Below are positions 2,213-63,870 of a DNA stretch of 64,000 bases, one piece after another; positions within the stretch are counted from its first letter, which is position 1; each line of letters begins with the position of its first letter. Origin of the DNA: Mytilus galloprovincialis. Lineage: Eukaryota; Mollusca; Bivalvia; Mytilida; Mytilidae. A program made the position numbers and the translations under genes. The DNA is taken from assembly GCF_965363235.1 (NCBI RefSeq), contig NC_134841.1, positions 35,555,440 to 35,619,439 of the forward strand. The letters run 5' to 3'. The notes below the pieces were generated by a model. That model saw only the letters and a list, made by a program, of their open reading frames with translations. It was not told the origin of the DNA and ran no database searches.

Positions 2213-2322
2213 TAGACAATTATCAATTGTTTTAGAGCTAGTAAAACAATACGTTTACTATTGTTTTTGTTCAATGGTTGTACATGTTTAAAAGAGAACA
2301 ATTAAAACAAGCTTTTTCTAAA

Positions 2323-2985
2323 AGAAGGACGAAAGATACCAAAGGGACAGTCAAAATCATAAATCTAAAACAAACTGACAACGCCATGGCTAAAAATGAA
2401 AAAGACAAACAAACAACAGCACACATGACACAACATAGAAAACTAAAGAATAAACAACACGAACCCCACCAAAAAAATAGGGGTGATCTCAGGTGCTCCG
2501 GAAGGGTAAGCAGATCCTGCTCCACATGTGGTACCCGTCGTGTTGCTTATGTGATAACAAATCCAGTAAATAGTCTAATTCGGTATGTCACATTCATTCA
2601 AGGGAGGGGATTATAGTTACGACGTAATGAACATATCCGATACTATTTGTGAAACGGTTATTCCATAACGGTCAACCAACTCGTGATGGCGTCCGTAAAA
2701 TTTACGAAGGGATGATTTCAACTTTACCATTTGGAACTCTTGGTTTAATAGCTTCCTTGTGAGCAGCAACCCTCTATCAAGAAAATCATGATAGGAAATG
2801 CAAGCACGGGAATATCGTATCAATCGGGAGATATATACCCCGTTTGCAGGTGCTGCTGGAATGTTGCTACTTAGAAATGGAAAGTTCACAATTGAAAAGC
2901 TGAAATCATCTCTTTTGTTGTAAAGTTTTGTTTTCAACCGACCCCCATTGTTAATTTCTAGATGTGACATTCAAATCCATGTTCA
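2323..2985 (-). mobile_element. 3' part of a non-LTR/Penelope-like reverse-transcriptase element
   Basis: The minus strand has an open frame (complement 2617-2970) of 117 residues followed by about 290 bp of tail that recurs at 1765, 17087 and 22983. The protein has the motifs YNKRDDFSFSIVNFPFLSSN, GVYISRLIRYSRAC and LRKFYGRHHELVDRYG. I know these from the C-terminal side of reverse-transcriptase ORFs that are very abundant in bivalves and cnidarians. No catalytic YxDD segment is present, so the copy is 5'-truncated and cannot encode a working enzyme. The class (LINE or Penelope-like) is not settled by this piece. It sits directly downstream of the copy A gene. Confidence 0.6.
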
Positions 2986-6589: not shown

Positions 6590-9500
6590 ATGACTTCACA
6601 AAGAATCCTCGTATTTCTTGTCTGTGTGTATATCGGTTTATCATATTGTTTAAGGATTGATCGATGCAACATAGGAATTAAGCGGTAAGTTAGTTATATG
6701 TGAAATACAATTGATATTTTGAATTAAGTATGAAAATATGTTATGATATTTTCACATAAAATGTTAATTTAAATGAGAGGAAAATAATTTTACAATGATA
6801 CAATTTACAAAATTCTGCGTCGTTTGAATCAATTTTTTAATATGCATTTAAAAAAGATATATCAGTACATATTTGTGCGTCTGACGTTTTTTTTTCAATT
6901 ACTTCGGTTGTTCTTTTTAAAGAAATATAATTTTGTATACTAATCTAGTTTTCCTTCGTCTATACATAAATGCTTCATAGGAAAAAGATACAAAAATTAT
7001 TTTGCATGACTTAATGATATCAATGTTTATCTTTAGAGTTTTGAAACAGCAAAAATGTACAATCTCTAAATATTAAAATGTTACCTAGTTGAAATTGTAA
7101 ATTCTTCTTACAATGGTTAGTTGATCGAAAGATAAAGTCAAACTTTTTGATGTCTTTGGTTTAAATCTGCTTACTGTTTGGTTATTGTTTTTTTGATAGA
7201 AGCAAACACACACAAACATAACGTATTTCTAAAATCATATTTTATATTGGTGTGTCCTTAAGTTATTTACTTTTTCTTCATGTCCGAAATGAAAAAAAAA
7301 ACTTTTGTAAACTCAATTCAAATACAAAAAATACACAAGGCTTGAAGTTATCATTACTTTATTTGTTAACGATGATCGACGTCTATCACATTTGCATCTG
7401 TGTCCATTTTTTTTTATGTTAAAAAAAAACCCGTATAGGAAATGCAATTAAAGAAAAAAAATTATTTGAAACTGCAATGGATAATGCCATTGTTTGTATC
7501 AATTAAGTTTATTAACGTATACGAAATTAAAATTGGTCAAATCATTAGCCAATTTCTAAAATTTATTTTCATTTGCTCAAGGATTTTTTTCTAGCGAATT
7601 ATTCATTCTCGTCCTTTTTGGTAAAATATTCACTTTTATATTGTTTTGGACAAGGTTATTCATTTTAAGTTGTTACCAGGGCAGATTATTCCTTTTTACA
7701 ACCACCTCTCATAATATTACATAATCGTGCCGCAAGAGCTTTAAAATAGTTGTATGATCACGCACGGGAATAGTGTTTCTGTGACATCAATAGTTTACAG
7801 TTTTACATAGATGACAATAAAGTCTTACATTATCTTCGAAACAGATATTAGGGAGACACAAACAATAAATATTATGTTTGAATGGAATGATTCATGAGTG
7901 TAGGGTGGGGTTTACTAAAAATATTTGTAAAAGCTGAAATCTTTATCGAATCGAGAAAAGTAAGAATATTTTTGGCAAAACTTTTAGGAATTTTTGGTCC
8001 TCAATGCTCTTCAACTTCGTACTTTATTTGGCCATTTAACATTTTTTTTATTCGAGCGTCACTGATGAGTCTTTTGTAGACGAAACGCGCGTCTTGCGTA
8101 AATATAAAACTTTAATCCTGGTATATATGATGAGTTTTTTTCATTATTCACACATTAATTTTAATTTAGTACATGTATATACTTTTATGTAATATATGTC
8201 TCACAGATTTGTTTATACGTAGTTTTACTGAAAAAAAACCAACCCTGAGTAAATGAAATCACCATAACGTTCAGAGCTATAAACAGGACTTCAATAAATT
8301 TAAAATGAGATTATACTTGTTAATTTGATGATTAAGGTCGAATAAAGAGGAATAAATGTTCATTAAAAAAGCAAATAAAAAAATGGAAAATAACTTTTGA
8401 TAACAGCGTTCGATAAATAAAACAATTGCTTCTTGGCGAATTAAGATTTATTCTATGTGCATGGATCGCAATATTGATTCAATGTTTAGTATAATAACTT
8501 ATTTACTGAACGCGCACTTTTTTTGTCTTTTCTCTTTCATCATCCTTGATAATAGACAAAATAAAGGACATTACAGATAGAAATTGTGTTTACCACAATT
8601 TTCTATTGTCTAAAAATCTTGCATAATTTTTAATATCTTTTTCGCGTTTTTCATTTAAATTAATTTTCCCAATCTATTGAAACATCTTGATTTTCCTTTC
8701 CTATAATTGTTCTGCATGTTCACCAATATATTAAACAGTCCGTCTTTTCAGGTACGAATATTCATAAATATTGTATCATATTTATTTACTCAGACGACGT
8801 GTACAAAGAGTTGTGCTGCCATCCAATTGTACAGAAGGAACGCTGTATTGGAACTATCCAGAAAAGACTTTGAAAGTGGTTGTTCCAGAAGAAAATGGGA
8901 ACTTCACATTTTGTGTGGGATATGTACATGATCCATTTGTAAAAAGGGCACAGATAACTACCCGCTCGGGATCTAGGAAAATCAATCTTCCTAGTAAGAA
9001 AGGTATGGTTTTTAAAGATTATTTTACAGTCATTCTATATACTAGTAATGTATCTCCGTATTCTTTCTTTATGTCATTATTTTTGTATTGTCAGTTCAGC
9101 CTTTGACATGACATAAGACACATAATCTTTTACACAGTAGTTGTTAAGATAAGAATCGAAGAAAGAGATGGATCGAAATCTAGAACAACAAATGCAGAAG
9201 TTTATTACTACGTATATTGTTGTTCCAAGTTTAGATAATTAAAGATGTGCGGTATACCTTATTGTGATCAACTGGATAACATAATGTCTTCAGCATTATA
9301 CTACAAATCTGCCTTCTCTTAACATCGCCGAATAAGATCAACACATGTAACTTGGAATGAACATCACGACGTGAGCCACTTGTAAAGCTGGACATGTTTA
9401 CTATTTTATTGCGTCTGAATTCATCTGTTTTATTGACATTTTTGTGCTGTATTTCTATTTTCAATGTCTGTGTTATTTTCATTGGTAACAGTCATTTCAA

Positions 9501-11147
9501 TCTATCTGATGTTATAACAATTATAAATTCCGTTATAATTTTGAATTACTAAGGCTTGTCTACCTTTGCTGTATGTGGCAAAACTTTTATGAATTTTTGG
9601 TCCTATGCTCTTCAACTTCGTACTTTATTTGGCTTTTTTAACATTTGTTTATTCAAGCGACACTAATGAGTCTTTTGTAGACAAAATGCGCGTCGGGCGC
9701 CAATATAAAATATCTATCCTGGTATCTATGATGACTGTATTAAGTTTATGAATTTGCCGAAGTCTAATGACAAGCCAAGACACAATTAACAATCTACTTT
9801 TAATTATGCCTAGTTAACGTATCGCCATGATTCCTTCAACGGCTGACTCTTCCAAAACAAAAACAGTTTAACTATAATATTACTTGTCTCTCTCCAATTT
9901 CAACTACTGTAATAACAAATAATGCATATACACCCAACTCCATTTTACATTAATAATAACCATCCATCCAAAACATTTGTGTATTTGTAAAAAGCGATAC
10001 GACAAAATTACAAAATATATTTTAGTCCAACTAGAAAGAATCACATATTTTGTATTCCTAATATCTATTGATGAACACAGTCCTAACTTGATAAATGCTT
10101 TCGACAATGACATATTTGGTAAACAAATAAAGCCACGCCTTGAATTTGTATGACAGTTACTTACTCCAACTGTCTATGCATCTGAGACACAATTTAAAAC
10201 AGGTTAAATAGTTATCAAAGGTACCAGGATTATAATTTAGTACGCCAGACGCGCGTTTCGTCTACATAAGACTCATCAGTGACGCTCATATCAAAATATT
10301 TATAAAGCCAAACAAGTACAAAGTTGAAGAGCATTGAGGATCCAAAATTCCAAAAAGTTGTGCCAAATACGGCTAAGGTAATCTATGCCTGGGATAAGAA
10401 AATCCTTAGTTTTCGTAAAATTTAAATTTTCGTAAAGAGGAAATTTATGAAAATGACCACATTATTGATATTCATGTCAACACCGAAATGTTGACTACTG
10501 GGCTGGTGATATCCTCGGGGACGAAACGTCCACCAGCTTTGGGATAAATGCATACCAGTTTAAAGACATACATGTTCCATTTAATACTATACAAAAGAGT
10601 AAGAGTTCGACTTTTAATGGTACAAAGTATAATTTCCGAAATTTTAAATAATTAAATTCATACAACAAGTTAAATAATACTTCACGAAGTTCCTTTCACA
10701 TAATAATTCGTTATTCTATATCAATATCACTAACATAGTTTGTGAAACGTAAAGTGACAAAGAACGCTGTACCCATATTTTCTACATTTGAAAATGCCTG
10801 CATGAAGTCGGGAATATGACAGTTGTTTCATTCGTTTGATGTGTTTTGTCATTTGATTTTGCCATGTGATTAGGGACTTTCCGATTGAATTTTCCTCGGA
10901 GTTCAGTATTTTTTGTGATTTTTCTTTTTAATACTTTCAATTATGATTAAACAATATTGAAATACGTCTTGTTTTTTTTTCTATTTTAGACCAGTCAGAA
11001 TGTTTTGACTACACTGGAGATTTGTCTCTTACATTTTTTGGACCAAGACGTATGAAGACATACATGGCCTTTATTCCATATATAAAGTCCAAAGAAGAAA
11101 GCAGGGACGAATACAAATACAAAGACTTCATTCAAAATCTGAGATAA
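6590..11147 (+). CDS. meteorin-like N-domain secreted protein, copy B (complete, 153 aa)
   Basis: There are three exons: 6590-6684 (donor GTAAGT), 8794-9002 (acceptor TTTACTCAG, donor GTATGG) and 10990-11147 (acceptor ATTTTAG, stop TAA). The total is 462 bp, or 153 codons plus stop, with intron phases 2 and 1. Residues 1-20 are a signal peptide (MTSQRILVFLVCVYIGLSYC). The mature protein has cysteines at 26 (DRC), 44 (NCTEGT), 72 (FTFCVGY) and 106 (ECFDY). They are joined by the motif CTEGTLYWNYP and by FFGPRRMKTYMAFIPYI near the end. Human meteorin has the same order: DRC, then CAEGAVEWLYP, then IACLRP, then RCVRW. The resemblance covers only the N-terminal, CUB-like half of the family; the protein ends where meteorin continues into its second domain. 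It is likely a small secreted factor. Assignment rests on motif spacing, without a database search. The first intron holds a hammerhead-bearing repeat, the second holds two more. Confidence 0.8.
7935..8125 (+). repeat. Hammerhead-bearing dispersed repeat, partial unit
   Basis: It holds the block around CTCAATGCTCTTCAACTTCG followed by the ribozyme at 8056-8099 and the tail AATCCTGGTAT. It lies in intron 1 of the copy B gene. Only the right part of the full unit seen at 18.7-19.2 kb is present. Confidence 0.75.
8056..8099 (+). ncRNA. Type I hammerhead ribozyme motif
   Basis: Core CTGATGA (8062-8068), stem II GTCT/AGAC with loop TTTGT, GAAA (8082-8085), then a minimal stem III and the cleavage triplet GTC. 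Stem I is GCGTCA against TTGCGT with one mismatch. It matches the hammerhead consensus by eye; activity is not shown. Confidence 0.7.
9555..9735 (+). repeat. Hammerhead-family dispersed repeat, decayed copy
   Basis: Same layout as 7935-8125. The ribozyme region (9657-9699) has changes in both core blocks (CTAATGA, and AAAA instead of GAAA), so it is unlikely to cleave. It is an old copy in intron 2 of the copy B gene. Confidence 0.7.
10210..10560 (-). repeat. Hammerhead-bearing dispersed repeat, about one full unit
   Basis: On the minus strand this is a near full-length unit of about 350 bp. It starts with the block ending ACGTTTCGTCCCCGAGGA and runs through the CTCAATGCTCTTCAACTTTG block to the ribozyme and AATCCTGGTACC. 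It aligns along its length with the unit between the two ribozymes at 18741 and 19096. It lies in intron 2 of the copy B gene. Confidence 0.8.
10242..10285 (-). ncRNA. Type I hammerhead ribozyme motif, consensus-perfect
   Basis: Read on the minus strand: stem I GCGTCA, core CTGATGA, stem II GTCT/AGAC, GAAA, short stem III, GTC, then TGGCGT. All six stem I positions pair (two G-U wobbles). Every conserved core base is present. Confidence 0.8.
10790..10925 (-). repeat. Dispersed repeat (GCTCAAACACATC-type family)
   Basis: Reverse complement of the repeat at 14590-14700 and 47285-47425, sharing the segments on either side of ATCAAATGGCAAAAT. It ends about 65 bp before exon 3 of the copy B gene. 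Function unknown. Confidence 0.6.
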
Positions 11148-12043
11148 AAGCCTGATTTTGCGTGACACTTGGAAGACAACTTTTCATGTTTAATCGAAAG
11201 TATTATATTCTATGAAGGAAATAATGCATGAGAACTTGTAAATACGACAATTCATCAAATGCATTATTCAGACAATAACAACGTATGCTGATGTATAAGC
11301 ATACATGGTAAAATAACGGTATTGTTATTCCAATATGGGACTGAGACATTATAAATATACTTAATCATTACTTAAAAAGTAATTAACTGGACAAAACAGA
11401 TTTATATCATAGATCAAAATGAAAAATATCGCTATTTTAATTATATCTTAACCATTTTTAAATGTCATAAATTTGGCGTTGTTTTTCACATTCCATGAGT
11501 AAGAGGTAACGAAAACATATATTTTATTCTCATGATTGCATATGGTATAAAATGAAATATTTATGAAATATACAATGAAATAGTACAAAAACATAAGATA
11601 TAACTTTCACATAAAATCTGTTACATTTACATGGTATATTGAAAAATAAAGTTAAGTCAATCCTCTCTTTCAGCTGAAGTTGAATGGGTATCCATAATAA
11701 TATGATACAGCATTGAAAAAAACGTTTAGAAATTCAGTAAAGATTGAAATAAAATTCACGACATAAACGAAGATTTGCTCTTTACACATTCGTTTGATTT
11801 TCATGAACAATTCAAGATCAATCTATTATTGTTGTCCCCTTTTATTAGGAAGTATTTACAAACATGAAAATCTTCAAAACTGCGTAAATTATCACATCAG
11901 AAATATTGAACTGTTAACGTTTTTAGACAGCTTTAAGAAAAGTACCTCTGCAAATAATTTTCATAGTATTTCAAAACTCAAGAATGGTATTTGTTTTCTA
12001 CATCTGAATTTACTCATCATACCAGGATTGAAATTTTGTATTT

Positions 12044-12087
12044 ACACCAGACGTGCATTTCTTCTACAAAAGACTCATCAGTGACGC
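12044..12087 (-). ncRNA. Hammerhead ribozyme motif, mildly degraded
   Basis: Minus strand: GCGTCA, intact CTGATGA, GAAA and a GTC site are present. Stem II is weakened (GTCT against AGAA) and stem I ends in TGGTGT. It probably derives from the same family as 10242-10285. Confidence 0.55.
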
Positions 12088-12816
12088 TCGAATCAAAAAA
12101 AGTTAAAATGATAAAATCATTATTTTGATTAATCCTCATCAATCATAAATAAGATATTGTTTACTAAATACAGCAACGAATACTTAATTATACACGCTTA
12201 TAATTGCCAATGTTGTGCTATCGTAACTAATACTAGTGTTGTAATATGAAATTTGTTAATTTCATTAAGACCATAATGTTTTAGGGCTTGTTAATATAGT
12301 TATTCTTCAAAGATGTACTCAACACATAACAGCTTATGTTAAGATTAGTTTACGAACTTAGATGTTCTTATTGTTATTAAAATGGGAAATTGAGAAATCA
12401 CAAATGTTCTAAGCTACTGTACTTGTGTCAAAAATTGAAATAGAAAATCAATTATAAAACGCAGTAACACGCTTAACGCATCATATTTTTGAAATTTTTC
12501 AAATTGAGGGTTAGAGGTAACAAAAATAACATCATGTATAAATACTGTTTTCATAATAACCATATATAATCCTCATTATTACATCATATATAAAATGATT
12601 TGTGCATGGTTAACAATTTACAATAAAATATTACTACTTTGATTTCTTCGACAAATATGTAGCTATATAGTGTAAAAGGGAGATGCAATTCGTATCTTTA
12701 AAGGGATAAGCATACAGTATATAATTTTGCATCGTATTTTTTAACCAATAGTTTATTAAAACACACTTCTTTTTTTCAGTTAGACAAATAGTAAGAAGAA
12801 CTAAAACATAAAATTG

Positions 12817-13045
12817 AGAATGGAAATGGGGAATGTGTCAAAGAGAAAACAACCCGACCATACAAAAAAAAAACAGCAGAAGGTCATCAACAGGTCTTCA
12901 ATGTAGCGAGAAATTCCCGCACCCGGAGGCGTCCTTCAGCGGGCCCCTAAACAAATATATATAATAAGTGATAATGAACGACATACTATTTTCCAAATTG
13001 TACACAAGAAATTAAAATTAGAATAATATAAAAGACTAACAAAGG
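12817..13045 (+). repeat. Dispersed repeat (AATGGGGAATGTGTCAAAG family)
   Basis: It begins ATTGAGAATGGAAATGGGGA and continues through a segment with GAAATTCCCGCACCCGGAGG. It matches 29895-30140, and in reverse complement 45369-45412 and the long copy at 51050-51593. No coding frame is conserved between copies, and the mobilising mechanism is unclear. Confidence 0.75.
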
Positions 13046-13446
13046 CCAGAGGCTCAAAAAAATGTATATAAAACCAGAAAATTTGGACATTAAACAAAGA
13101 ATCAATGCTAAAACTTATTTAAATCAAACTACGATTTCAAGAAAAAAATCAAATGTAGAACCAGGATAAATCAATTAATATGATTCACTGATAGTACCAC
13201 TGAAAATTGTGTAAGCAGTATTTCACTGCACAAAATATTATTTGTTATCAACCTCAAAATCATAATCGCATCCATGATCAATTGCACATATTGAATAGGA
13301 ACAGTAAAAACTTACTCAATACAACATGGTGTATTTATACGTTAAACTTAGAATTCTCAATGCTGCGTTCTATTCCAATAAAAGCATCAATTGGAATTCA
13401 TATCCGAAAAGTATCATATGTAGTCCAGAGTTTGGACCGGTTTGTG

Positions 13447-16400
13447 TTATTTTACTATAAAGAGTATTGCAAACATTGTAAAAAGGAAGAAACAGTATGA
13501 AGGAGTTGAACCATTGGCTTTGTTGAGGATGTAGATAGTGGTTGGCTTTCTATAAGGATCGAGTCCAGGATCAAACCTTTGTGGACAGTCATCAACTGTA
13601 ATCAGAAATGTGTACATTATGTAATGAAGCTTTTTACCGTAATATTCATTATGCAATTTTATGAAACATGTGGTTCATCAAAAGCATGCAATCATTTTGT
13701 TGAATACTAGGACTTCTATTAGATTGACAACTATTTTTTACACTTGTTGTGCATCAAACTTTTTGATATAACTCATTGTCTCTCTTAGTGAGATGGGATG
13801 ATTAAATCTGTAAATTGTATCAATGATAACATATATGCACTTTTTGTAAATAAAATATTTTCCCTTCTCCTCCTTTCATATTCAAGTACTTTGGATTTCA
13901 ATTCAGGGGGCTAAAGCGTTCCTGGTAAAATTAGATATAGAAAAGCGCGTCGTATTTAACTTATTTATATTTCTATATTGTACTGAAAATAAGATTGCCT
14001 TGTGAATTCAGTTTCATTTATTGTTTAGCCTATCGCTACTAAATTGCTTGACAAATTTTATTTTGACTCTATAGTATATTACATAATTGATTCGATAAGT
14101 AACCGTTGTAAGGTGCTTGGCAATTGATAGAATGCTTTCATTTCACTATCAGTGAATTTCAGTTTAGGTTCATTTGTTTAACTAAACCAATCAGAGATGA
14201 TATTAGTTTATAGTTTAGCAAAACTGATTAATCCATTTTGGATATGTAAACCAAGAAAACTAATTGAGGAAAATGCATGAAATCAAGATGTAGCAAAATT
14301 AAATGCGTGACTAAGATATGCCATGTATGCACGACCCGTCATGCGAATCAGTAAAATATTCACAGCGTTCTCTTTGAAATTGGCTGCTTTTGAAGACCAG
14401 GCTGTAATTGATTACTTACACAATCTCTCACTTTCTGTGAGTTTAAGTGACAGTCCGGTTCCATCTAACTGATAAGAATCGGCCGTTTGTTCTGGTGGAC
14501 ATCTGGCATTTTGTGACCTTGACATCATTACATCCGTCCAACTTAATCGTTCATATACCTGTAAATACAAATTACAGTGGTATAAACTATTAAAAAGTAA
14601 AATCATAAAGATACTGAATTCCGAGGAAAATTCGAAACGAATATTCCCTAATCAAATGGCAAAATTGAAGGCTCAAACACATGGATACATTAAATCTAAG
14701 CATTCAGAAAACAAATCAGATTTTAAGTTATTCAATAATCTATCATGTATTCAAGTAACGAGTTAAGAGTTGAAAAAAAAACAAAAGGATTACATACTCC
14801 AAAGGGGGTATCATTTTTTTTTAAACTTACTGTTTTGTCAGAATCCCGTATCCCGCTTATCATTGTAATAAAAGAGATTGTAATTTTAAGTGAACCGCCC
14901 GACTTTGTTTCCCGTATTCACGCAAAATGATTTACTTTTCACATGTTGCACTTTCAAGATATCGGTTAATCCCGCATCAAGCTAACACAAGAAGTGTCGT
15001 CATGAATATGCAGGAAAACTCCAACTTGACACTAAACAAGCAACAACCAACTTAAATTAATAAACTCATCATAGATACCAGGAATGAAATTTTATATTTG
15101 CACCAGACAATCGTTTCGTCATCAGTGACGCTCGAATAAAAACATGTTAAAAAGGCCAAATATAGGACGAAGTTAAAGAACATTGAGGACCAAACATTCC
15201 TAAAAGTTTAACCAAATACAGCTAAGGGAATCTTCATGGTATTTTAAAAATTTCAAGTTTCGTAAATAGTTAATTTCGATTCATGAACATATCAATGATA
15301 ACGCTAGCCAACAAATAGGCGCTGACTACAGGGCTGGTGATACTCTCGGGATATTCAAACTCCACTAGCAGTGGCATCGACCTAGTGGTTGTAAATAAAC
15401 TCAGGAATTACATTTTATATTTGTCCCAGATGCGCGTTTCGTCTACAAAAGACTCATCAGTGACGCTCGAATCAAAAATATTAAAAAGTCCAAATGAAGG
15501 ACAAAGTTGAAGAGCATTGAGGACCAAAAATTCCTAAGAGTTTTACAATATACAGCTAAGGTGATCTATTCCTGAAGTAAGAAAGGAGCATATTCAGTAA
15601 GTTCCTTATAAATGATATGTATGTCTGTCACAGATTATTTCAATCAAAAAGAAAGGGCGTACTTTTTTAAAACGCACTTACCCAACATCTGAAGTTTGAA
15701 ATGGCGTCTTCTTCATCCCAAGTAATCAAATAAGACTTGTAATCTTCCATCCAGAACCCAACACATGTCAGCTCGTGGTCAGACACATCTATATAAATAA
15801 GTGACGAATCATATAATAGAAATTAGAGTAAATGCCTCGCACAAGTTTAGATATAGCTAATAAACAATTATCTATGTTCCATTTCAAAACTTCTCACAAA
15901 AAAAGCAATGATATTAACAATAAATCTCATAGCCCTTACAGTTGGTATATTCGTCTTCAAATCTCTTCACTAAATACTTGTCAGCCAAAGTAACTCTATC
16001 AAAGTTTGAACTCGAATATATCATAAGAAGAAAAAGATGAGAACAGCATTTCAATGTCAGTCACATATGTATATATTTTATCTGTGCATGTCAAATAATT
16101 CTAACAAAATTTGCCCAAGGTATTGCTGACATGAACCTTTGATATAAGTTTTATAAAAAAACATACACGCAATAAACATTTTAGATCGCTAGCTATGAAT
16201 TTTTCATAAAATTTGAATGTCTAAAGACATAAATCATCTAAATATAATTGAGTGGCACAGACTGATCCTTTATATTATTGTCGACATAAACCTTTGGTCC
16301 GATTTCTTCGGTTTTATGTTGCTGGTGAAACCTACCATATTCTCCAATTGGGCGTCCTCTGTAGTTCAATGTTTCGCAGTATTCAGCATCAACGGATATC

Positions 16401-19400
16401 TTATTCACATCATTGGTACACGACTTCATTTCAGATACAGTTATTCGACAGTATATCTTAGACCTTGGTCGTTGTGTTACACCTCTGATTCTGGTGTTGA
16501 ATTTTTCAGTTTTTGTCATATAATATTGTTCAAAATGGTATCGTCCGGCTATAGGACAAGGAAATGGAGCTGGCGGATTCACTGAAACGAAAAGTTATTA
16601 ATTATATTTTGAAGACTATCAATTTTAAGATGTCATCGAAAAATATTGTAACTTTTGTTTAAAATGAATAATGAATAAAAAACAGTGATAGATGTTCGTT
16701 CAATTTCGTTTTATTTTTCACGTTCATATACATGTCAGTCACGAAAATCATAAAGTAATAGTTAAATACTAACAGATCAGGACTTCATATTTCCAATCGA
16801 TTTCATCTCTGTTAAAAGTAAAGGACATCCAACTACATGCTGCTCTAAATTTCTTCACCAGTATTTTGTTATTCCGTGCTTCGTCTTGCGATATTCTTAC
16901 AGGTTTGCCTGAAGTTATAAATGAATATGTTTCCATATAAACAATATAAATATGCAGTACTGAGCAATAGTTTATGCTATTTGACGTTCATTTTTAAAAT
17001 CGCAGTTCGTTACCGTAGTCTAAAGGAAATCGTTGAGGACGTTCCAGCAACTTGAAAATTGAAACGGATAATAAAATCACATTTCTCCACGACGTTTATC
17101 GAATTAGACCATTTACCGGATTTGTTATCTCATTAGCAACACGACGGGTGCCACATGTGAAGCAGGATCTGCTGACCTTTCCGGAGCACCTGAGATCACC
17201 CCTAATTTTTGGTGGGATTCGTGTTGTTTATTCTTTAGTTTTCTATGTTGTGTGATGTGTACTATTGTTTGTCTCTTTGTCCTTTTCATTTTTAGCAATG
17301 GTGTTGTCAGTTTACTTTCGATTTATGAGTTTGACTGTACCTCTGGTATCTTTCGTCCCTCTTTTATCGAAAAATGTTCATTTATTTAATAATGAAGTTC
17401 AAACCCATAAAAGTATAAACCCGAAAAAAACATACAAGTTTCGACTATATTTGCTTTAACTTTTGCAACCATGGGTCAAAGATATTAAGATAACACAATG
17501 GTAAATAAAAAAACGAATAACAGTCCACTACATAGAATTCCAAAGATTGAGTAATACGAATCCTACTAAAACGAGTTGAACATTTAATTTAATATTTAAA
17601 AAAAAACTGGTTTCATCTATGTTTTCATCTAAGTTTGCTCGAGACAGTATTAAGTTTATTGCATGATCATAACACTATAAAGTTGAATTAATGTACCTAA
17701 TGTAATCTTGAAAACTACACTGGAAATTCCATATAAACACAGTATCATTTCTTGAACACGTAAAGTTAAATAGAACGTTTTTTTCTGTTATCTTGAGTTG
17801 TTCGATAAACTATTCATTTGATAAACAAGGCTTTATTTGAAAATTGAATGCTACTTTTTTAATTATATTTGGGTGTAAAACTGTTGACCGAAACACAATT
17901 TCAATGAGAGCGGAAGAGCTTCTATACTAAACTTGTGCGCACGATCAACGATTCAAAAACCCTATAAAGAGACTTTTGTCCTTTCCATTTTTGAAGCATG
18001 ATAATTACATTGGTATTTACCGTCCAGCGAAAAATATTAGAGGCATATCATGACGAGAACATTTGAATATGTTATGAATATATAAATATGTTCACGAAGC
18101 GGCAGTATAAATAAGACATGTCATCACAATTCCGAGCACACCAATCTTTGCTTTTACAGTAAATGCCTCGTGCTTAGCTGAAAATCAACGAAAACCAAGT
18201 TTCCGAGATCACCTATCAAAAATTAAAAGTCTTTAAAGGGTAGATTCAAAATTACGATATGTGTTATGAATATCAAAATTTGTTTATCGCGAGAAAATGA
18301 GTATATTTAAATATTATCGAAACATACCTATCCTGTATCTAACAACACTATGGTGACGTGGCAAGATGTCAAAACATACCAAGTCAACTTCGCTGTAAGT
18401 ATGAACAAAGCAATATTATACCAAAATATAAGTCAATTTTTCTATGTAAATAAAAATCAAAGATACAGTAATATGTGCGTTTCCTCTACAAAAGACTCAA
18501 AAGTAACTTAATAATGTTAATTAATAGTTAATGAGCGTATGCGTGAACTGAATTTAAAAGTTTGTTGATGTTTGTTTGTCTGCTTTTTCATTAAAAAAAT
18601 ATAAATGAATGTCGCATTTAAAATACACTTTTTCATAATCTGTTCCTTTGTCCTTGCTATATAACAGGTTAAGAAAAGTCAGTCCAACTTCATTCAAAGG
18701 TCCATAGACAATAGATCTATTAACCTGCCTAAACTGATGAGCGTCACTGATGAGTCTTATGTAGACGAAACGCGCGTCTGGCGCACTAAATTATAATCCT
18801 GGTACTTTTGATAACTATTTACACCACTGGGTCGATGCGACTGCTGGTGGACGTTTCGTCCTCGAGGTTATCACCAGCCCAATAGTCAGCACTTCGGTGT
18901 TGACATGAATATCAATTATGTGGTCATTTTTATAAATTTCCTGTTTACAAAAATTTAAATTTTTCGAAAAACTAAGGCTTTTCTTGTCCCAGGATTAGAT
19001 TGCCTTAGCCGTATTTGGCACAACTTTTCGGAATTTTGGATCCTCAATGCTCTTCAACTTTGTACTTGTTTGGCTTTATAACTATTTTGAAATGAGCGTC
19101 ACTGATGAGTCTTGTGTAGACGAAACGCGCGTCTGGCGTACTAAATTATAATCCTGGTACTTTTGATAACTATTATCTTTTATACTTCTTTTTGACATGG
19201 AATTCAACTATATGTATGCAGAGGCGAGACAGCGATTATAGATAACTGTATCGCCGTAAAGTTATTTCATTTAAACATCAATAACTTTGTCATACATTCA
19301 GAGTTAAAAATTTGAAAAAAACATCAATACTAAAATATTGAGATTATGATTTCCAATGAGATAAATATTCAATAGAGACCAAAATAACGCGGATGTAAGT

Positions 19401-22400
19401 AACGATAAGGTTACGGCTTTCACATCAGGGAAAACATACCGTACTGTCAGTTATAGAAAAAATGTGAATCAACAATAACTGATTTACAGCCGGGTTAATG
19501 GCATTATATAGGCACACACAAAATAAGGTGGTGGTTTATAATATTCAAAACTTCATGAAATTTCAAGAAACGTTTACAAAATCTTCATAATCAAGAGATA
19601 AAATTATTTTCCCCCGTATTTTATTAAATGTTATAAGCAGTCAACTTTGTTTCAAGTCTGAGGTTAAACTTCAAAAATTTCGCCTTAACAGATAAAATAG
19701 GCATTCTTCAACGTTCAGTAACAGAGATGTGAGATTTTAGTTGATACTTTATAAAGCTTCATCCTATCTGATATAGTGATTTTGTGTCACGAATTATTAC
19801 ACCATATCAATTATTTAAATAAGACCAAACGGTGAATATAAAATAATTAATATTACCAGTGAATATAAAATAATTAATATTACCAGTGAACATAAAATAA
19901 TTAATATTACCAGAGAACATAAAATAATTAATATTACCAGTGAACATAAAATAATTAATATTACCAGTGAATATAAAACAATTTTTACAAGTGAATATGA
20001 AATAATAAATATTACCAGTGAATATAAAACAATTATTATAAGTTAATATAAAATAATAAATATTATCAGTAAATTCAAAATAATAAATATTACCATTTGC
20101 CCTCAGTTACTCTTGTCATCATGTATCTTGTGTCTTTTGACTGCTGGCAGGAGAAGTACGAATTCCTGAGTGTAAATTGGTTTATTCTGGTTTTAAATGT
20201 TATATGTGTTTCATTTACCAAAACATCAGATTTAAACTGTTTTCCTTGCGTAAACCAATTTCCAGACATATTCCTTGGTAACACACAATGAGGCTGTAGA
20301 AAGTTCGTAGGTGGCAGCACTGAAATTTAGTCGATGCAGAAATAAGTATCCAAAACAGTGTACAGGGTGGTGCAGAAAAAAGAGAACTTAATAAATTTCT
20401 TAAGTCTTTTAAAACCTTAACAATACATTTGTACTTGTTATTGTTCTATTTGTAAATTCTAATTGTGATTTATACAGTGTTGAAGAACTTTATTGGACCT
20501 GGGAATGCTAATCTTGTCATACTATTTGAGTACATTACCAGTTTTTGGCTGATTCGTTTTGCTCAATCTTTAGTTTTCTGTCCAAGGGTATTTTAATCGT
20601 CTTAATGGAAAGTCATTCCTATTTGTCATTTTGTTGTTCGACTCTCGGCGATCATATCAGAAGGATTATTTTCAGAGTTTTTTTCATAGTGCTTTTTTTC
20701 ATTTATATATGTTTTTTCATGTTTTTAATTATGTAATTCAATAAAAATTGGTAACCAAATGGTAAAATCAAAAGCTCAAACACATTAAACGAATGGATAA
20801 CAACGTTTGAGAAAACACAAACAGAATAGCCAAAACAATGTACGCCTAAGGTATTCTTTGAGTGAATGAAAATAGTTATATAAAATCAAGTGCATCGTTG
20901 AAAGTATACAATTGTTAAAGTGCTGGCTGTTTGGCGAATAGTTTCATACGGAAAAAACCCTTATGTAATGCACCTATAACGTTGAAAAACAATATAAGGG
21001 AACGAGAGAGTCAAACTCAGCTTGTAGATATGTGATTTTAATTCTACTTACCTCTTCTTAATATGAGCTTCCGGTCGCCATCATAGATACTGTTTAAAGA
21101 ATTACAATTTGGAAATCTGCTCATCACCCAACGAACCCAGTTATTCGGATCCTTCTGGTCTTTCATGGTCATCTAATATTAAGTTATTGTATTTGATTTA
21201 GAAAGTTCAAAATACTTGTAACTTTATTGTATATATTAATTAACTTTTATTGAGCCCTTTCTTTTAAATGAATGTAGTTTTTATCATTCACCCATTTTTA
21301 TAATGTTAATGCATGGCTGAATTAACAGTTAAAGGTTAAATCAAATGCCAAGTTGTAATGCTTTAAAAATCAAACATTCCGGAAAAGTGTACCGAATACG
21401 GTAAAGAAAATGTATGTCTTGGGAAGAAAACCCTTTATGTTTCCAACAATTCGACATTTGATATACAGTAAATTTACAAAAAAATGTACAAATCAATGAT
21501 ATTTTTTGTCAAACCGCACATGTGGCAAGTGCTGTCGACTCCGATTTAATTGAATGGAATTTGCTATTAATCCTGCCAAAGGTCTATGGTTCTCTCCGGG
21601 CACTCCCGATTCATTCGCAAATATAAACTTGCCACCGTTATATTGAAAAAAGTACCGAAATAGACGTTGTTCACCAACACTACATCTATCCTAATGAAAG
21701 AAGAAAAAGTATAGCCTGATGCATTATCAACTTTTATATATGTTACAAACAAAACATACCATGCATTTAAATTTTTCTCTGATATCAGCTTCAACCACTG
21801 CGGCAACTGCAGCGAAAATATAGCCAACACCATTCTTAACAGCATACCAAGATCCCATGCATCTATATCGTATACCTGTAAAATATGTACAGAAGGTATA
21901 CATTTGTAATATGCTATCATATGTTTTGGTAGATTCCCAATTTTTTTCATTTCGAAAACTGATATTATCTTTGATTTGTTGCTATTTAAAGCATATTGCA
22001 GTATCATTCATACAGTTTTGATCGATTTGACGATATAATTATAAGAATTTTTAAGGAATTTAGGGGTTGTTTTTACTTTTTAATATTTGGACAATTTCAA
22101 ATATATATATATATCTATATAACGCATAAGTTGTATAATCTTTGGGAAATATTAAAATTCACAATCTTTTTCAAATCATATTTCTTTGATCATTGAGATG
22201 TTCTCAGACTGTTGTTATAATTGTTGCTTTGTGTTTTATTTGTATGGTTATTTCTCATGCTTACAATATCCAGGCATTCAAAATTAAACTTATATTATTA
22301 GACAAAAATACTTAAGTTCGAAGCATACTTTGATCCTTGGAAGTAGAAACATCATAGCATCTGGAATAATTCATTTGGAAATATTTGTTGTCTACATATG

Positions 22401-25400
22401 CTGATCCTGGATCCTGACAAGCAGCTATTATACTGTTGGAATTGTTACATATACCCCCTCTCGACATGGCACCTCCGACCTCATAAGTGAACTGGTACAT
22501 TCCTTCTATTGTTGTTATACAGTTTACATCGATTGGACTTATTCCTATGGAGAAAAAAACAGCATTAACTTCAATATTGAAGAATTCCAAAATGAAAAAA
22601 ATAGATAGATACAGTTTACATTTTTTAAACAATACAAAGTTCTAACCAACATCGATAATTACAAAATTTGTCAAATTAACAGATGAATATTCAGTTTCCC
22701 CTTGCTCATTACTATGTTGTGTTATTTTATCGCTTGTTTGATATTGATTTAGTTGTCTAGTTCAGTTAGCTTTATATTTTATTTTCTTCACTTTAACAAA
22801 TATTTCTCGATGTCTAATTCTGTCTACAGCAGTGATGAACACTAAGTTCATCTATTGAGACGAATATAAACTAACTATTAATATATTAAGATGAATGCAA
22901 TATGTATATCTGTAATGATACATTAACTGTATATTTGTAAATATATATAGTGACTGTGTGTATATACATCTTTACAGATATACAGTTTGGTGGGGTCCGT
23001 GTTGTTTATTATTTAGTTTTCTATGTTGTGTCATGTGTGCTGTTGTTTGTTTGTCTTTTTCATTTTTAGCCATGGCGTTGTCAGTTTGTTTTAGATTTAT
23101 GAGTTTGACTGTCCCTTTGGTATCTTTCGTCCCTCTTTTATATTCATTTACAAATATAAGTACATTGTATATGCATCTCAATAGATATACAGGTTATCTA
23201 CAGTTTATAAGCATCTTGCTAAATTCCGCCAACAACTAAACAATATTACTTTCGTTAGTTGACTAATACCAAAAGTCGGATATACGTTTGCCTCACGCTT
23301 TACTTACTGAACATCGTTGTAGTACTATCCATGTCAGGTAGGCCTTCGGAAATACCTCTACAAATACTTATGTTAGAACCATTTGAACTCTTTATACAAT
23401 GTTCTGTTAAAAGACAAAAATATATATTAGAACTAAGCATTTGTGAGCAAGCAGCAATGATCGTCACTACCTCAATGATATACCAACAAGAATGATTGTT
23501 AGGTAAAATGTGTTTTCGATCTTGATTTTTTTTCTCAGATCTCGGAGCTATTGACTGAATCTCGTACAATAATAGTACTTACATTTTTTGTCTTCTGATA
23601 ATTTAATTGTGTGTAAGTTTTTTTCAAACTGAAGCCTTTATGTGTTTTCCTTTCTTTGACGACATTTCTCTTTCTTCATATCATGGGTTTTACATGTCAT
23701 TATTTGATGTTCCATGTTCGTAGTAGCATATAAGTAATTTAAAAAACCGTTTGATTTAACCCGTACATAAGTTAACTAGTGTAAGCATCAATGTTTGAGG
23801 GTTTATATTTCTACAAAGACAACTTATTTCAAACCAGTCGAATATAGATATAAGAAGATGTGGTATTAGTGTCCATGAGACAACTCTCCGTCCAATACAC
23901 AACTTATGCATACATATATATGCAGACAGAAATTTGAGAAATAATTACTCACGTCGTCTGTATTGTATGATATTAACTGTCCGGAATAAAACATCTACAC
24001 AGAAGAAACACCTGTGTCTGTTTGTGTCTCCACTGAAATTATATATCGTCATTTTCACAGTTTAATACAGTTTTATGACAAATTAGATGACTCCAATGAA
24101 ATACTAGTATTATTCTGCAAGTTCAAAATAGAGGAGGTTAGAGCTAATCCAAATGAATTAACCTATGGTTTTTTAATACACATTTAATTAATTTAAGAGC
24201 CTACAAAAGGTTTCGATGCCATTTTGGTATATTAAGAAAATATTACCACACTATAAATGCAATTTTGACAAATTTTGATAAAACAAGAGTATTTACCCAA
24301 TGTATATGCAGGCGATTCTTAACCATTACAAAAATTCATTGGAAGTACAGGTATATATTAAATACAAATTAATTCGATTTAATGGTTAAAGCAATATTTT
24401 ATTCAAATACAATATACAGAGTTGAAAAACCAAACATTATCATTTAATTGAAACAGGTATGAGGTAACAATAAAAGTTGTCACCAAACATTGTCATTTAA
24501 TTGAAAAAGGTATGAGGTAACAATAAAAGTTGTCACCAAACATTGTCATTTCATTGAAACAGGTATGAGGTAACAATAAAAGTTGTGCAAGTAGTTCATC
24601 TACGACATTATATTAAACTGTCAATTTTGAGGTTGGTCGTTCGAATCCCACTTTTGGCGAAGTGTTTTCGACTACGAATGGAAAGCATCTCTCCGGGTAC
24701 TTTGGCTTCCACCGCATATAAATACTGGCAATCGCGATAAAACCATTTGCTAATGCTAGCAAGTTAAAGGTTTGGTTTGCTTGCTTTGTTTGTATGAAAG
24801 TTTGCTCAAGCATTGTAATTAAGATTGACAACTTCAAACAATATCAGTAGGCAGAGTTAAACGTGTATACATTATATTTGAATATTCAATGGACATTATC
24901 AAATTTACCAAAGTGTATACATTATATTTGAATATTCAATGGACACTATCAAATTTACCAACGTGTATACATTATATTTGAATATTCAATTGACATTATC
25001 AAATTTACCAACGTGTATACATTATATTTGAATATTCAATGGGCATTATCAAATGTACCAACGTGTATACATTATAATTGAATATTCAATGGACATTATC
25101 AAATTTACCAACGTGTATACATTATATTTGAATATTCAATGGACATTATCAAATACTCAAATTTACCTGTATACAGGTTTAACTCCGCCTGCTGATATTG
25201 TTTGCATATGTCATCTTAATAACAAATAATAATAATAAACAAAGAAAGAAAGCAAACAAGTCAACCAACCTTTTAACTTGCTACCATTATGATAACAGCT
25301 GTAATTAAAATGATATTTTTAGCATTCATTACAATGACATTATTATCATTGATTACAATGATATTATGATAATTCATTACAATGTCATTATAAAAATTCG

Positions 25401-28400
25401 TTACAATGTCATTATTATCATTGATTGCAATGTCATTATTATCATTGATTACATTGTCATTATAAAAATTCGTTACAATGTCATTATTATCATTGATTAC
25501 AATGGCATTAATATCATTCATTACAATGTAATTATCATCATCCATTACGACGATGTCATTATTATCATTCATTTCAATGACATTGTTATCATTCATTACA
25601 TTGTCATTATTATTTTACATTACAATGACTTTCATATCATTTATTACAATACCATTGTAATGTTGGCATTGTTTACTTACGCAACCGACATCAACATAGT
25701 ACTGTTGACCATAGAACTATTTAGTTGTTTGATCAGTGAGATTTCTTGCTTATGTTGGCATATATCAATACATTCTAGTCGTTCTTGTGGTGTTGAGATT
25801 CTGCTCCAAAAATTGACGTCTATGTTGGTTCTAACGTCTGCACCACTTTCTTGAGAATACCAGTCGCCATGATAGGCTGCTGGTATAAAACACTTGCCAT
25901 CTAAAATGTAGTAAATGTTGGTAACAAATGAGTAAAAGCTTGCGGTGCATAGCCGGACCTATCCAATATTATCAATTAACCATGCTGTTGATTTGGTGAT
26001 ACGTATTGACTAAAAGCATCGAAGTTTAGGATTCTGGAACGCAGGATCAATCACCATAGGCGAAACGTTATGTACAAAGACATTGTCAAATAAGAAGTAC
26101 TAGTCCCCTGCATTTGTTTCATAGCAGGATAATTTTCATAGTCATTGGATTTTTTGTCATATTGACATGCAACTGATGTGATATGTGACAAAATAACAAA
26201 AAACATAGTATATAACGTGTTTAAAAAAATGACAAGAAGAATTGAAGCATGCAATGTATAAGTAAATGAACGTATGATTATAGATTGAATGGGTAATTTG
26301 GTTGTGACACTGGTAATTCTGAATATAAAACGCTGTTATAAATGCTTTAAAGGACATTTAATAGCTGTCAAATTCATGTTCACAGATTTTACTCAAATGT
26401 TTGTATTTGATTCATGATATACTATACAAATATAGCCTTTGTATGAGGTCGATACAAGGATATATTGACCTGAAAGAAGTATATTGACTGAGGACGAAGT
26501 CCGAGGTCGATATACTTCTTTGGGTCGATATATCCTGTATTGACCTCATACAAAAGCTATATTTGTTATATTATTAATTTCTGACCATATTTGTATCAAA
26601 ATCGTCATTTAGGTTTGTTGGAATTTTATAGATATTACATTGTCTCCTTGACAATAACAACATATTAGTTGTTATTTCGTGTACTTTTTTTTTTGGACAT
26701 CTTATGTATTTGAAGATTTTTTTCGTCAAATAATTGATCACAGATATCATGTGTTTCAAAAAGTTAAACAATATCCTGAAATTCATTACATGACGTCACA
26801 AAGTATATTGGTTTTTAGATATTCTAAAAATAACCGTGGAATATGCTTTTTGCAGGTCACTATGATTTTTGCTATCCGCCGTTTTCTCTCTACCTTCGAA
26901 AATATATTTTAACATGTGACTATCCCTAAACGAATCAATTTTGTTAAAATATACGAATTAATAATATAAAAACGTATATTTAATTATAAAAGTCTAAAAT
27001 AATCAATTTACGATGCACGGACTCGATAATATGTATCAACATTTCGAGTGTATTTTAGTTTAGATGCCATCTTATCAACACCATCGACATGACCCTCGAA
27101 CAATTCATTAACGATGTGTCTTTGCTTTTTTGACAAAAATATACCAAATGGCTGGTAAAAGCTAATTATTATATCACTAATTTTCTTTCTTTTATGAATG
27201 AATAAAAAACCAACTTATATCTTATCTTTTCTACATCTCGTAGCTAATGCACATTTAACACGATCAAAATCTGTTTACAAATTTGGATAGTTGTTGGCAA
27301 AATGTTCGTATCCAACACACAGAAATCATATTGAAAATGTTCTTATTCAAACAGCAAAAGCCATGCAAAACATACTAATATCTTGGCACAAAAGAAATAA
27401 AACGTTCTCTCTCAATAAACGTGCGTTTCGGGGAGCAACAGATGCAAGCGTTTATGATTTAAAAAAAAAAACAACATTTCAGTAAACAGCTCAAATATTT
27501 ATTTATGAGAAGTGGTAATATTTAAAAAAAATCCTACCAGAAAGTGTGTCATTAGAATTAAAACAACTAGCATGAGTTTTTACAATGACTACTGGACAAA
27601 ATTTAAAAAAACAAAATCGAAACTAATTTAATTTTAAAATGGAAATTCAAACGATTATATTAGCTATATAGTATATGTTGGTTCCAGTTGTAGCAGCACA
27701 GACAACAAAAAGTATAATATTGCTCTATTAATGTCTCTCTACTGTTTTTTTTAATGGTTTTTCTATCTTTCAAGAAAGATCTACAACTTGGACTGAAAAT
27801 AATGATAAATACAGAATGGCGGGTAATCCTTATTTTTAAAATGGCGAAATCCCTGCTGATAAAGAAATAACTCTGTTGTCAATGTCTTGTATGTATACAC
27901 GACCAGATATTAACATGACTAATATCAGATAAATTTGTTTATATTGTATTTATTGTAATTATATAAAATATTAAAATTAGTTATGAATTATCAACACAAT
28001 ACATGTTTAATATGTAAAGGTATATTGTTTTATGAATATATCTTATGAAAATGTATGACTGCATTTGGAAAAGTCTTGGTTTCTTACAATTACATGCATT
28101 TTAGCATTGATTAAAGACAAATTTGAACAGGCATTGAATATAACAAGTACATAGTCTTTAACTTTAATTTCAAATAATTTCAGCAATTATCTATCAAAAA
28201 TAAAAACTAAAGTCGTGTTACAAGCATTCACATTGTTTTTTCTCGAAACCGGAAACCGCTTGTTCAAATACTAAACACATCTAAAAACATCATTATAAAA
28301 GTCGCTGGACGACAACAATAATAAGATAAAAAGGAAACCACAATTGATTGTTTATTTAACTTACCGGAAAATCTCAAATACAAATTGAAAACTAGAATAA

Positions 28401-30830: not shown

Positions 30831-33800
30831 ATGGAAGGAATTCAAAGTATTATCTGGGTGTCTTTATTTCTGCTTCTAAATGTGATAACGGTAAATTGTC
30901 GTTTGAATACAACGGATCCTTGTAACCCAGTTTTATTTTCGTAAGTACCTATAAATTAACCTGTTACTGTCGAGTCGCTGTGGCACAGAGGTGTAACTAT
31001 AATGTTTTTTCTATGAGACATATGCATATACTAGAGTATCATAAGCATGTCTGGTTTTTCTGTAATATATATTGCATACTAGTAATTGTTTAACCTCCTT
31101 TTAGAAAATACCAATTTGAAACATTTGAAGAAATATAAATGAGATTCCGAGGTTACGACATGAGGTCTTGTTGTATAATCAATTGTTATCCGTTGTAATA
31201 ATCAAGGCTTGTTGGTACGGTACCGTTCCTGGATCTTGCGGAAATGTTTTCCATCATCAATCTTACGTTTGGTTGATTAAGTAAAATTCCAGGATCTTGC
31301 GGAAATAATTTATTTATCATATATCTTTTTATTTGATTCGTTAATTATAGGAGTAAATCAAATACAATTTAAGTGCATGTTATTTTTTAAATCACAAGTA
31401 AATTGTTTTACGTGATGTAGCGATGTTGCTTCCGATGTTGACATTTGATGCACCCTGATTTTGGTTTGTATAAAATTCCAACAACCCATTGGCCTAGTAA
31501 AATATAAAATGGAGTGTTCTTCGATGTTGAACATGAATGTGGTCATTTGAAATGTGTTTAAAAGCAGACCACTTTATCTGACTAAACATACATACAACAA
31601 TAAAGTTGATGATGGAGAACATTTTACATGGCCCCTTTATAATCTTAAATTTAGAGAATGGAGTCCTATCATAAAAAGTTGCAAATAAAAATAAAATTTT
31701 GAAGTGTAAAAACAAGTGCCAAGTTCAATTGGCTTTTAATTCAAGAAACCTTAAGGTTTTGAAATTTTTGGGTACTTAGATAAATAAATATTTTATTGAA
31801 CTCAGAAAGCTATGATATGTGTATATGTAATCCTTTAAGTTTATTTGCATGTTAATACTTTGATATGTATTCTGTATTAATAAATCATTTTTAACACATA
31901 TGCTTATGGCTTTGGTCTAGCTGTGGTAAAAAAACCATGAATTTATTGTACACCAAGGCCATTTTCAAAATGTCTTTCAAGGCAATCAGCCTAATATGTG
32001 TACTAACAAGGTTTTAGCAATAACTAGGCTTAATTTTTAACACTGTGACAATACCAATTTATAAACGAATCAAACATAGGAGGATTGCACACTTCCCGTT
32101 CTAATGAACTTCTGACTAAACAAATCCAATGGACATTTACATTACTGCTTTTGAAACAAGTTAACTAAATTTGTGAAGATAACGCTAGAATTGAGAAACA
32201 AATCTTATTTTCTAAGAAGTCTGTCACATGTAGGTTAATACTATAATGGACGAATTAATTAATTTACCATTTTTTAACACATATATTTAATAAGTAAAAA
32301 TAACTAAATAAAATTAAAATGTGTGAAACCTGCGTTGACAGAGAAATAAATTACAGAAACAAAGATGCAAAGAAAAGGAAGAAGTTTCAGTAGAACCTCA
32401 TCTGTAATTATAAATAATAATATCATATCAAATATACCAAAAAAAATGTGGTATGATTGCCAATGAGACAACTCTCCACAAGAGACCAAATGACACAGGA
32501 ATGAACACCTATAGGTCACCGTACGGCCTTTAACAATGAGCAAAACCCATACCGCATAATGACCATTGATAATTCTTTTTTTTTTGTATTTCAGAAAACG
32601 ACCAGAGAGGAACGTGGACATTCTTGATGATTGTTCTAATGGCACAGTTAGCTGGCATTATCCAATGGCATTTCTTAACATATTTTTCACAGCAACAGTT
32701 CAGGAATACGAAGTTTGTATAGGGCACATAGCAGACAAAGCTGTTAAAAAAATCTATGAAATCATTGATGGAGTCATTGAAGAGCTTCCTCTACCTGCTA
32801 AAGGTACGAACCTGTTTCATATAATAACAAATAACGTATACAGAACTGACGCGAAAAGATTCAGTTTTGTTTTCATTTTATTGGCCAATTAGGCAATATT
32901 TTACTATATGTATATCGAGTAGCAGACATTCAACTTTGTCTTAACACACGCTCAAAACAAATGCACTAATAAAAGTAGAAAAGTAAAATTAAGATTATCA
33001 CACAAAATAAAGGAGTTGTATAATATATCGTACATCAAAACAAAATAAAGGAATTGTATAATATATCGTACATCAAAACAAAATAAAACATATGGCATAT
33101 TTGGGAATTTTTGGCCCGTGTAAAATCATAATAATAAGTCCTAAGTACGAATTTTCATATTAAAAGCCAATATATGCTTGTTTTTAAGAAAATTTCGGCC
33201 AAATTGACAAGCGCCACCCAAACTATAGTTTACCAGTGAATAGAGGAACAAAATACCCCTCCTGTGTAAATATCTTTTTGGCCGAGGAATGTGCCGCTGT
33301 ATCATTCAAAGCGTGTGTCAATCAAAAACTCATAAGTTTTGTATAATTTCACAATTTTTCTTGCTTCACTGTCATCCCTTATAAATAAAATAATAATATT
33401 TTGAATCAAAACTGCAATGTTTTATTTAAATACTCGGATTATGTACCCTTGTGTTAATTCAATGCTAAACATATGGAAATTTTATAGAAAATCCACGGCA
33501 TTTATGTTAGAGTGCGCTCGATTTTAGTGACTCAGCACGAGGTATTTTGTAATTTACAGGCTGCTTAGAACTTTTGGTAAAAAATAAACACTAGCACATC
33601 ATAGAAAAGCAAGTGAGTAATATATGTTTCAAATTTTATAACAAAAATCTCTTTATTAAAGGCTGTGGATTTTCTATAAAAATCTTGATTTATTTGCCAC
33701 AAAGTACTCTTTGTCTATTAAATGCAATGAAACAATAAAAAATAATGCTTTGCATCAAGTTTCCCCTTGGTATATGCACAAAATGGACTATCCCTATTAT

Positions 33801-46940: not shown

Positions 46941-46984
46941 AGCCCAGACGTTCGTTTCGCCCACACAAGACTAACCAGTGACGC
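46941..46984 (-). ncRNA. Decayed hammerhead ribozyme motif
   Basis: Stem I GCGTCA and GAAAC remain, but the core CTGATGA reads CTGGTTA and stem II no longer pairs. It is almost certainly inactive. It is part of the older split repeat. Confidence 0.5.
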
Positions 46985-47130
46985 TCAGAGGAAAAAAGCT
47001 CGAAAACCAAAACAAGTACAAAGTTAAAGAGCACTGAGGATCAAAAGTTCCAAAAAGTTGATTTGTGACCAATACGGCTAGGGTTTTCTGCCCAGGATAA
47101 GAACATCCTTATTATTAAAAATAATTCATA

Positions 47131-63467: not shown

Positions 63468-63870
63468 CCCCTGTGAGATGATAATGAATAATTCATGAAT
63501 ATGCATGAACATTTCATGAACTGTTCATGAACAGATTTCATGAACAGTTCATCATATCTTCATGAACATTTGATGAGCAATTCATGAACTGAAAATCGAC
63601 AGTAATGTTCATGAACTTTAATGTTCATGAACAATTCATGAACAAGAAAGGGTTCATGATCATTGTTGAATTTAAATGTTCATGAACCTTTCTTGTTCAT
63701 GAATTGTTCATGAACATTAAAGTTCATGAACATAACTGTCGATTTTCAGTTCATGAATTGCTCATCAAATGTTCATGAAGATATGATGAACTGTTCATGA
63801 AATCTGTTCATGAACAGTTCATGAAATGTTCATGCATATTCATGAATTATTCATTATCATCTCACAGGGG
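63468..63870. mobile_element. 403-bp near-perfect palindrome made of TTCATGAAC words
   Basis: The ends are CCCCTGTGAGATGATAATGA and its exact inverse TCATTATCATCTCACAGGGG. Arms of about 185 bp pair almost completely, through AATCGACAGT and its inverse ACTGTCGATT, to a short centre near 63665. More than twenty TTCATGAA or GTTCATGAAC words lie inside. It is likely a foldback MITE; no certain target duplication was found. Confidence 0.85.

Follow-up and report, generated by a model that had tools for sequence, protein, structure and literature searches.

Introduction

In the mussel Mytilus galloprovincialis, ~5000 type I hammerhead ribozymes have been reported, usually in 350-390 bp repeats, and circular RNAs have been seen on northern blots (PMC7229834). 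Here we describe a stretch of 64,000 nucleotides from the same species (contig NC_134841.1, positions 35,555,440 to 35,619,439 of the forward strand; hereafter the window, in whose own numbering all positions are given). It contains a tandem pair of type I hammerheads at 18737-19174 (+ strand; copy A1). Taken together with the mechanism proposed below, this locus is probably one dispersed 1.23-unit copy of a non-autonomous metazoan retrozyme without long terminal repeats (non-LTR retrozyme). Elements of this kind have already been published from M. galloprovincialis, and the 3′ end shared by most copies in the window under lenient alignment may already be in print as well.

By its description, the published M. 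galloprovincialis retrozyme resembles A1 in its low G+C content, and invertebrate hammerheads, like those of A1, have a stem III of two pairs with a tetraloop (PMC7229834). In contrast to the copies in the window, no shared 3′ insertion end is described for it in the available part of that source. The axolotl HHR_Amex2 (350 bp), again by its description, has a nearly equal unit length and the same two-pair stem III with a tetraloop, although its host is a vertebrate; dimeric HHR_Amex2 constructs cleave better, as predicted folding suggests for A1 (PMC7229834). Plant LTR retrozymes are likewise non-autonomous, with hammerheads and circular RNA, but their hammerheads are of type III, their length is ~700 bp, and they have LTRs with a primer-binding site and a polypurine tract as well as 4-bp target-site duplications (PMC7229834).

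A further parallel comes from PAc, a Penelope-like element (PLE) of Anolis carolinensis. The start of its reverse transcription is internal, lying 111-118 bp into the open reading frame (ORF) and within an AC-rich stem loop; its hammerhead cuts 26 bp into the ORF, and its insertions in the genome terminate where reverse transcription starts (PMC11167929). Like the element described here, PAc forms partial tandems and carries a type I hammerhead. Its insertions end, as do most copies here under lenient alignment, tens of nucleotides downstream of the cut and at or beside an AC-rich stretch, a likeness that would bear on mechanism and not on class membership. In PAc, however, the start lies ~85-92 nt from the cut, farther than the ~41 nt seen here, and its preference for AT-rich targets is not seen in the flanks of our copies.

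Results

An 83-bp direct repeat (18737-18819 and 19092-19174), with a spacing of 355 bp and two differences between its halves, frames A1. An initial annotation, made from the sequence alone, had placed two type I hammerheads in head-to-tail order at 18727-19170, with 355 bp from one to the next. The arrangement is confirmed by this repeat and by matches to the Rfam type I model (Hammerhead_1, RF00163), while the annotated limits were near but 10 and 4 bp off those of the repeat. The covariance search that the annotation had proposed as a check gave a divided outcome: on the + strand, the hammerhead at 18741-18784 scores 34.4 bits (E = 7.9e-05) and passes the gathering score of 34, whereas that at 19096-19139 reaches 32.6 bits (E = 3.3e-04) and falls below it, so that the first alone of the pair exceeds the cut-off. 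Cleavage is predicted after 18778, following the GTC of the motif, and after 19133.

Read from the sequence, stem III of the A1 hammerheads consists of two pairs (A-U and C-G) and a GCGC tetraloop; for stem II, a form with four pairs and a loop of five bases is possible. As had been annotated, stem III is small, but the likeness then drawn to Penelope-linked hammerheads is inexact, because minimal hammerheads, some of which occur in PLEs, are usually without helix III nucleotides (PMC7761336). One of the two differences between the halves falls in loop II and the other in stem I, where pairing is kept (G-C or G-U). Between the two predicted cleavage sites lies a 355-nt unit (18779-19133, + strand) that would be released as a linear monomer or a circle. 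Its G+C content is 39%, compared with the limit of 45-50% given for metazoan non-LTR retrozymes, and the 355-bp head-to-tail spacing falls within their unit range of ~170-400 nt. No stop-to-stop ORF of at least 90 amino acids overlaps 18737-19174, which fits a non-coding retrozyme; PLEs, in contrast, encode a protein with reverse transcriptase and GIY-YIG domains. An antisense hammerhead, considered by eye in the central hairpin (18820-18912, - strand), was rejected, as it had no Rfam hammerhead match at E up to 5.

The hammerhead core pattern CTGATGAGTC N0-12 GACGAAAC has five occurrences in the window, whereas 100 dinucleotide shuffles yielded none. Besides the pair in A1, exact cores lie at 8062 (+), 10255 (-) and 15436 (-); the first two score 27.7 and 33.0 bits against RF00163 and the third 26.3 bits against RF00008 (gathering score 48.5), all below the gathering scores. 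The initial annotation had overlooked these three cores, and also the other seven copies of the repeat to which the dimer belongs. Its retrozyme-like reading is supported by the unit size, the tandem type I hammerheads, the 39% G+C, the presence of two related subfamilies and the dispersed copies, and its statement that small circular hammerhead RNAs are reported from metazoans including mussels agrees with the M. galloprovincialis report (PMC7229834).

Alignment of the window to the tandem unit revealed these eight copies, on both strands, and one 31-bp relic. Under each of the three scorings used, A1 (438 bp, or 1.23 times the 355-bp unit) aligns without gaps to the tandem unit, starting at unit position 314 and ending at 41. 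A2 (10205-10537, -) is 93% identical and has one hammerhead with an exact core. Copies B1 to B4, 72-80% identical to the A unit, form a second subfamily, the A and B4 units being 67% identical. Among them, B1 (7971-8139, +) carries an exact-core hammerhead with one mismatch in stem I; B2 (9491-9742, +) has a mutated core and a weak 5′ limit (9563 under stricter scoring); B3 (12011-12115, -) is short, with a damaged stem II; and B4 (15058-15652, -) comprises ~1.7 units of diverged sequence with limits that shift with scoring. In B4, the hammerhead with the exact core carries AUC where cleavage would occur and pairs poorly in stem I; the second hammerhead of this copy is without stem II. Copy C (46905-47131, -) is 75% identical with a mutated core, and D (21316-21516, -) is decayed (68% identical), neither a hammerhead nor the common 3′ end being aligned. 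Overall, the exact core is kept in five of the nine hammerhead stretches compared across copies, and by inspection three hammerheads (both in A1 and that in A2) look fully intact. Six copies are shorter than one unit, while A1 and B4 are longer. The relic (18477-18507, -), upstream of A1, was found by nhmmer (E = 1.5e-04) and has a local score of 18.5, compared with a maximum of 12.5 among 60 reversed segments under the same scoring; it was excluded from the counts of ends below.

Seven of the eight copies are clustered within 13.5 kb (7971-21516), the eighth (46905-47131) lying 25 kb away. B2 and A2 are oriented tail to tail, facing each other. The 400-bp flanks of the eight copies are mutually unlike, except for one stretch of the same DNA between the facing A2 and B2 and one 122-bp repeat; as the flanks are unrelated, the copies look like separate insertions. 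This 122-bp repeat, of another kind, is shared by the 5′ flanks of A2 and C in opposite orientation and at 87% identity.

To compare where copies end, we numbered the unit so that position 1 directly follows the predicted cut. Under lenient alignment, the 3′ ends fall at 41 (A1 and C), 42 (B1), 43 (B2 and B4), 47 (A2), 39 (B3) and 319 (D), so that seven of eight lie inside a nine-base arc (39-47) of the 355 positions. With 500-bp flanks and unchanged lenient scoring, the end of B4 moved to 60, leaving six of eight in the arc. The probability of such clustering for random ends is bounded at 1.5e-8 (seven of eight) or 1.8e-6 (six of eight), and none of 200,000 simulations reached either. Whichever of the three scorings is used, A1 and C end at 41, and the end of A2 stays within 43-47. 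Inspection by eye shows that A1, C, B2 and B4 have TATT as their last bases in common, after which the unit continues as TACACCAC in A1 and as TACAACCAC in B4; the common end thus adjoins an AC-rich stretch. Inside A1, the place where other copies end is read through at 18815-18830 (+; TATT^TACACCAC, unit position ~41). Past position 41 the two read-through copies, A1 and B4, remain alike, indicating that the ends are not simply the point at which the family diverges. The nhmmer profile had been built from segments already cut at the junction and was given no weight for the common 3′ end. In contrast to the 3′ ends, the 5′ ends are dispersed over unit positions 65 to 314, with scoring-dependent values for B2, B4 and C; the 5′ end of B2 in the first alignment was the edge of the aligned stretch, and a later alignment included more flank. 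In the lenient alignment, all copies but D span the cleavage site.

We also folded the unit and its hammerheads with an energy model that omits tertiary contacts. Folded alone, the single hammerhead is not the minimum for the first (A1a; -7.1 versus -10.6 kcal/mol) or the second (A1b; -5.7 versus -12.1 kcal/mol) A1 sequence. A dimeric double hammerhead is the minimum for A1a+A1a (-32.3), A1a+A1b (-30.9) and A2+A2 (-29.5 kcal/mol), but not for A1b+A1b (-29.5 versus -31.0) or B1+B1 (-23.5 versus -28.0 kcal/mol). In the 438-nt transcript, the unconstrained fold has -105.5, the cis-dimer -99.6 and two monomers -89.5, so that cleavage at both sites would be easier through the dimer. With one monomer, the values are -101.2 at the first site, predicted to be slightly more favourable than the cis-dimer, and -95.0 at the second. 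For comparison, a cloned genomic repeat with a mussel hammerhead self-cleaved at ~0.1 per min (PMC7229834), and most invertebrate hammerheads cleave as monomers (PMC7761336). The AC-rich stretch starts a hairpin in one predicted fold and is elsewhere paired differently or unpaired.

Several other features lie in the window. At 39376-40633 there is a tandem repeat of a 162-bp unit (7.8 copies, 97% matches), and at 63484-63854 a long palindrome of TTCATGAACA-like units, with microRNA-family matches below threshold on both strands. ORFs at 22312-22641, 16238-16594 and 25677-25958 (all -) match Pfam DUF7042 (31.8 and 24.1 bits) and DUF7044 (18.9 bits), the cut-off being 27 for each. A C-x-x-G-T-x-x-W motif recurs in the ORFs 1048-1392, 8768-9106 and 32563-32892, which have no Pfam match; these and the DUF7042/DUF7044 ORFs are possibly related genes. 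Related hydrophobic stretches, CCLFFSFLCCVMC or CLSFSFLAMALSV, occur in ORFs at 1651-2037 (-), 2271-2546 (-), 17108-17389 (+) and 22919-23239 (+) and are perhaps another dispersed repeat.

Discussion

A 3′ end that stays fixed while the 5′ ends vary points to a single starting place for reverse transcription. As this place is not the hammerhead cut, a cleaved linear monomer copied from its terminus would not have been the template, which would instead be a circle or an uncut multimer. We propose a retrozyme cycle in which the locus is transcribed and both hammerheads cleave after GTC to free the 355-nt RNA, as the published family leads us to expect, and in which a host ligase could close that RNA into a circle. 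Reverse transcriptase would be supplied in trans, most likely from a PLE, and would make the new copies. Its starting point would be internal and the same each time, ~41 nt downstream of the cut and beside the AC-rich stretch, and its stopping point would vary, while the template (circle or uncut multimer) would run unbroken through the cleavage site; one full turn and a little more would give a hammerhead dimer.

The Penelope step, drawn by analogy, is the weakest part of this explanation: the parallel with the internal start of the anole PLE is suggestive and does not identify the enzyme. In its most specific form, which we consider possible but rather doubtful, a Penelope-like reverse transcriptase copies animal retrozymes by starting each time at the same AC-rich site of the circular RNA; its signature would be the common 3′ end ~41 nt past the cut, and the circle-making 'dimers' would be copies that went more than once round.

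Several results weigh against the retrozyme cycle or parts of it. Two stricter scorings leave four and three of the eight 3′ ends within 39-47, a loss of clustering that we attribute to the poor alignment of subfamily B immediately beyond the cut. With a unit of subfamily B as reference the 3′ junction could not be placed, as that unit has a deletion there. The 5′ ends of B2 and B4 fall together near 146 when scored leniently; the middle scoring puts them at 225 and 212. No target-site duplication above chance was found in seven copies, the longest shared words being 4-6 nt, like those of random pairs; PMC7229834 mentions such duplications, when present, for metazoan retrozymes. The 25-nt 3′ flanks average 72% A+T compared with 68% for the window, and we claim no target preference. 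The idea of an unusually stable unit found no support, as 9 of 100 shuffles were equal or better both for the circular fold (-80.2 kcal/mol, z = -1.4) and for the linear one (z = -1.62). Neither a reverse transcriptase nor a GIY-YIG domain was found in the 30 of the window's 41 stop-to-stop ORFs of at least 90 amino acids that were searched. No copies turned up when viral contigs and the genomes of bacteria and archaea were scanned for exact patterns, as expected for an animal repeat. Finally, ribozyme mutants of the anole PLE left insertion in vitro unaffected (PMC11167929).

This last result also favours a variant in which the element is the same but the template is an uncut multimeric transcript and cleavage is unneeded for insertion, all the more as unprocessed RNA is suggested to be the dominant substrate of that element (PMC11167929). 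The retrozyme cycle leaves both templates open, and circle and multimer look alike at the sequence level. Mussel retrozyme RNA is, however, mainly circular on northern blots (PMC7229834). Moreover, the A1 halves differ at two positions and each matches A2 at one, as if changed after insertion, an argument weakened by copy C, which carries the loop II base of the second half. We regard the variant as a real possibility, though short of probable.

Two other origins appear much less plausible. Fixed 3′ ends with variable 5′ ends are also typical of long and short interspersed elements (LINEs and SINEs). Metazoan retrozymes could count as a novel SINE family (PMC7761336), and a LINE reverse transcriptase might have mobilised the repeat as a SINE-like element, its hammerhead being incidental. 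Yet by eye the seven shared junctions show no poly(A) or short-repeat tail, and ARAGORN, which could miss a diverged head, detected no tRNA gene in the window. The lack of target-site duplications above chance and the length of A1 and B4, longer than one unit, also speak against this origin, which we consider unlikely. The same two partial tandems could instead suggest a satellite, in which a local array gave rise to the dimer by unequal exchange or slippage, as inert DNA without any RNA-borne movement; newt hammerhead repeats were originally named satellite DNA (PMC7229834). However, both strands carry copies, eight in all, of which six are shorter than a unit; their flanks do not match in register, and a 3′ end is common to most of them under lenient alignment, so that we consider such an origin very improbable.

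In a literature set without most subscription papers, five short sequence words of the repeat had no match, and no report of a shared 3′ end of animal retrozymes was found among titles and abstract openings. According to PMC7761336, no motif points to the element that mobilises metazoan retrozymes. If it holds across the thousands of copies in the mussel, a fixed end beside an AC-rich site would be a clue to their mobilisation.
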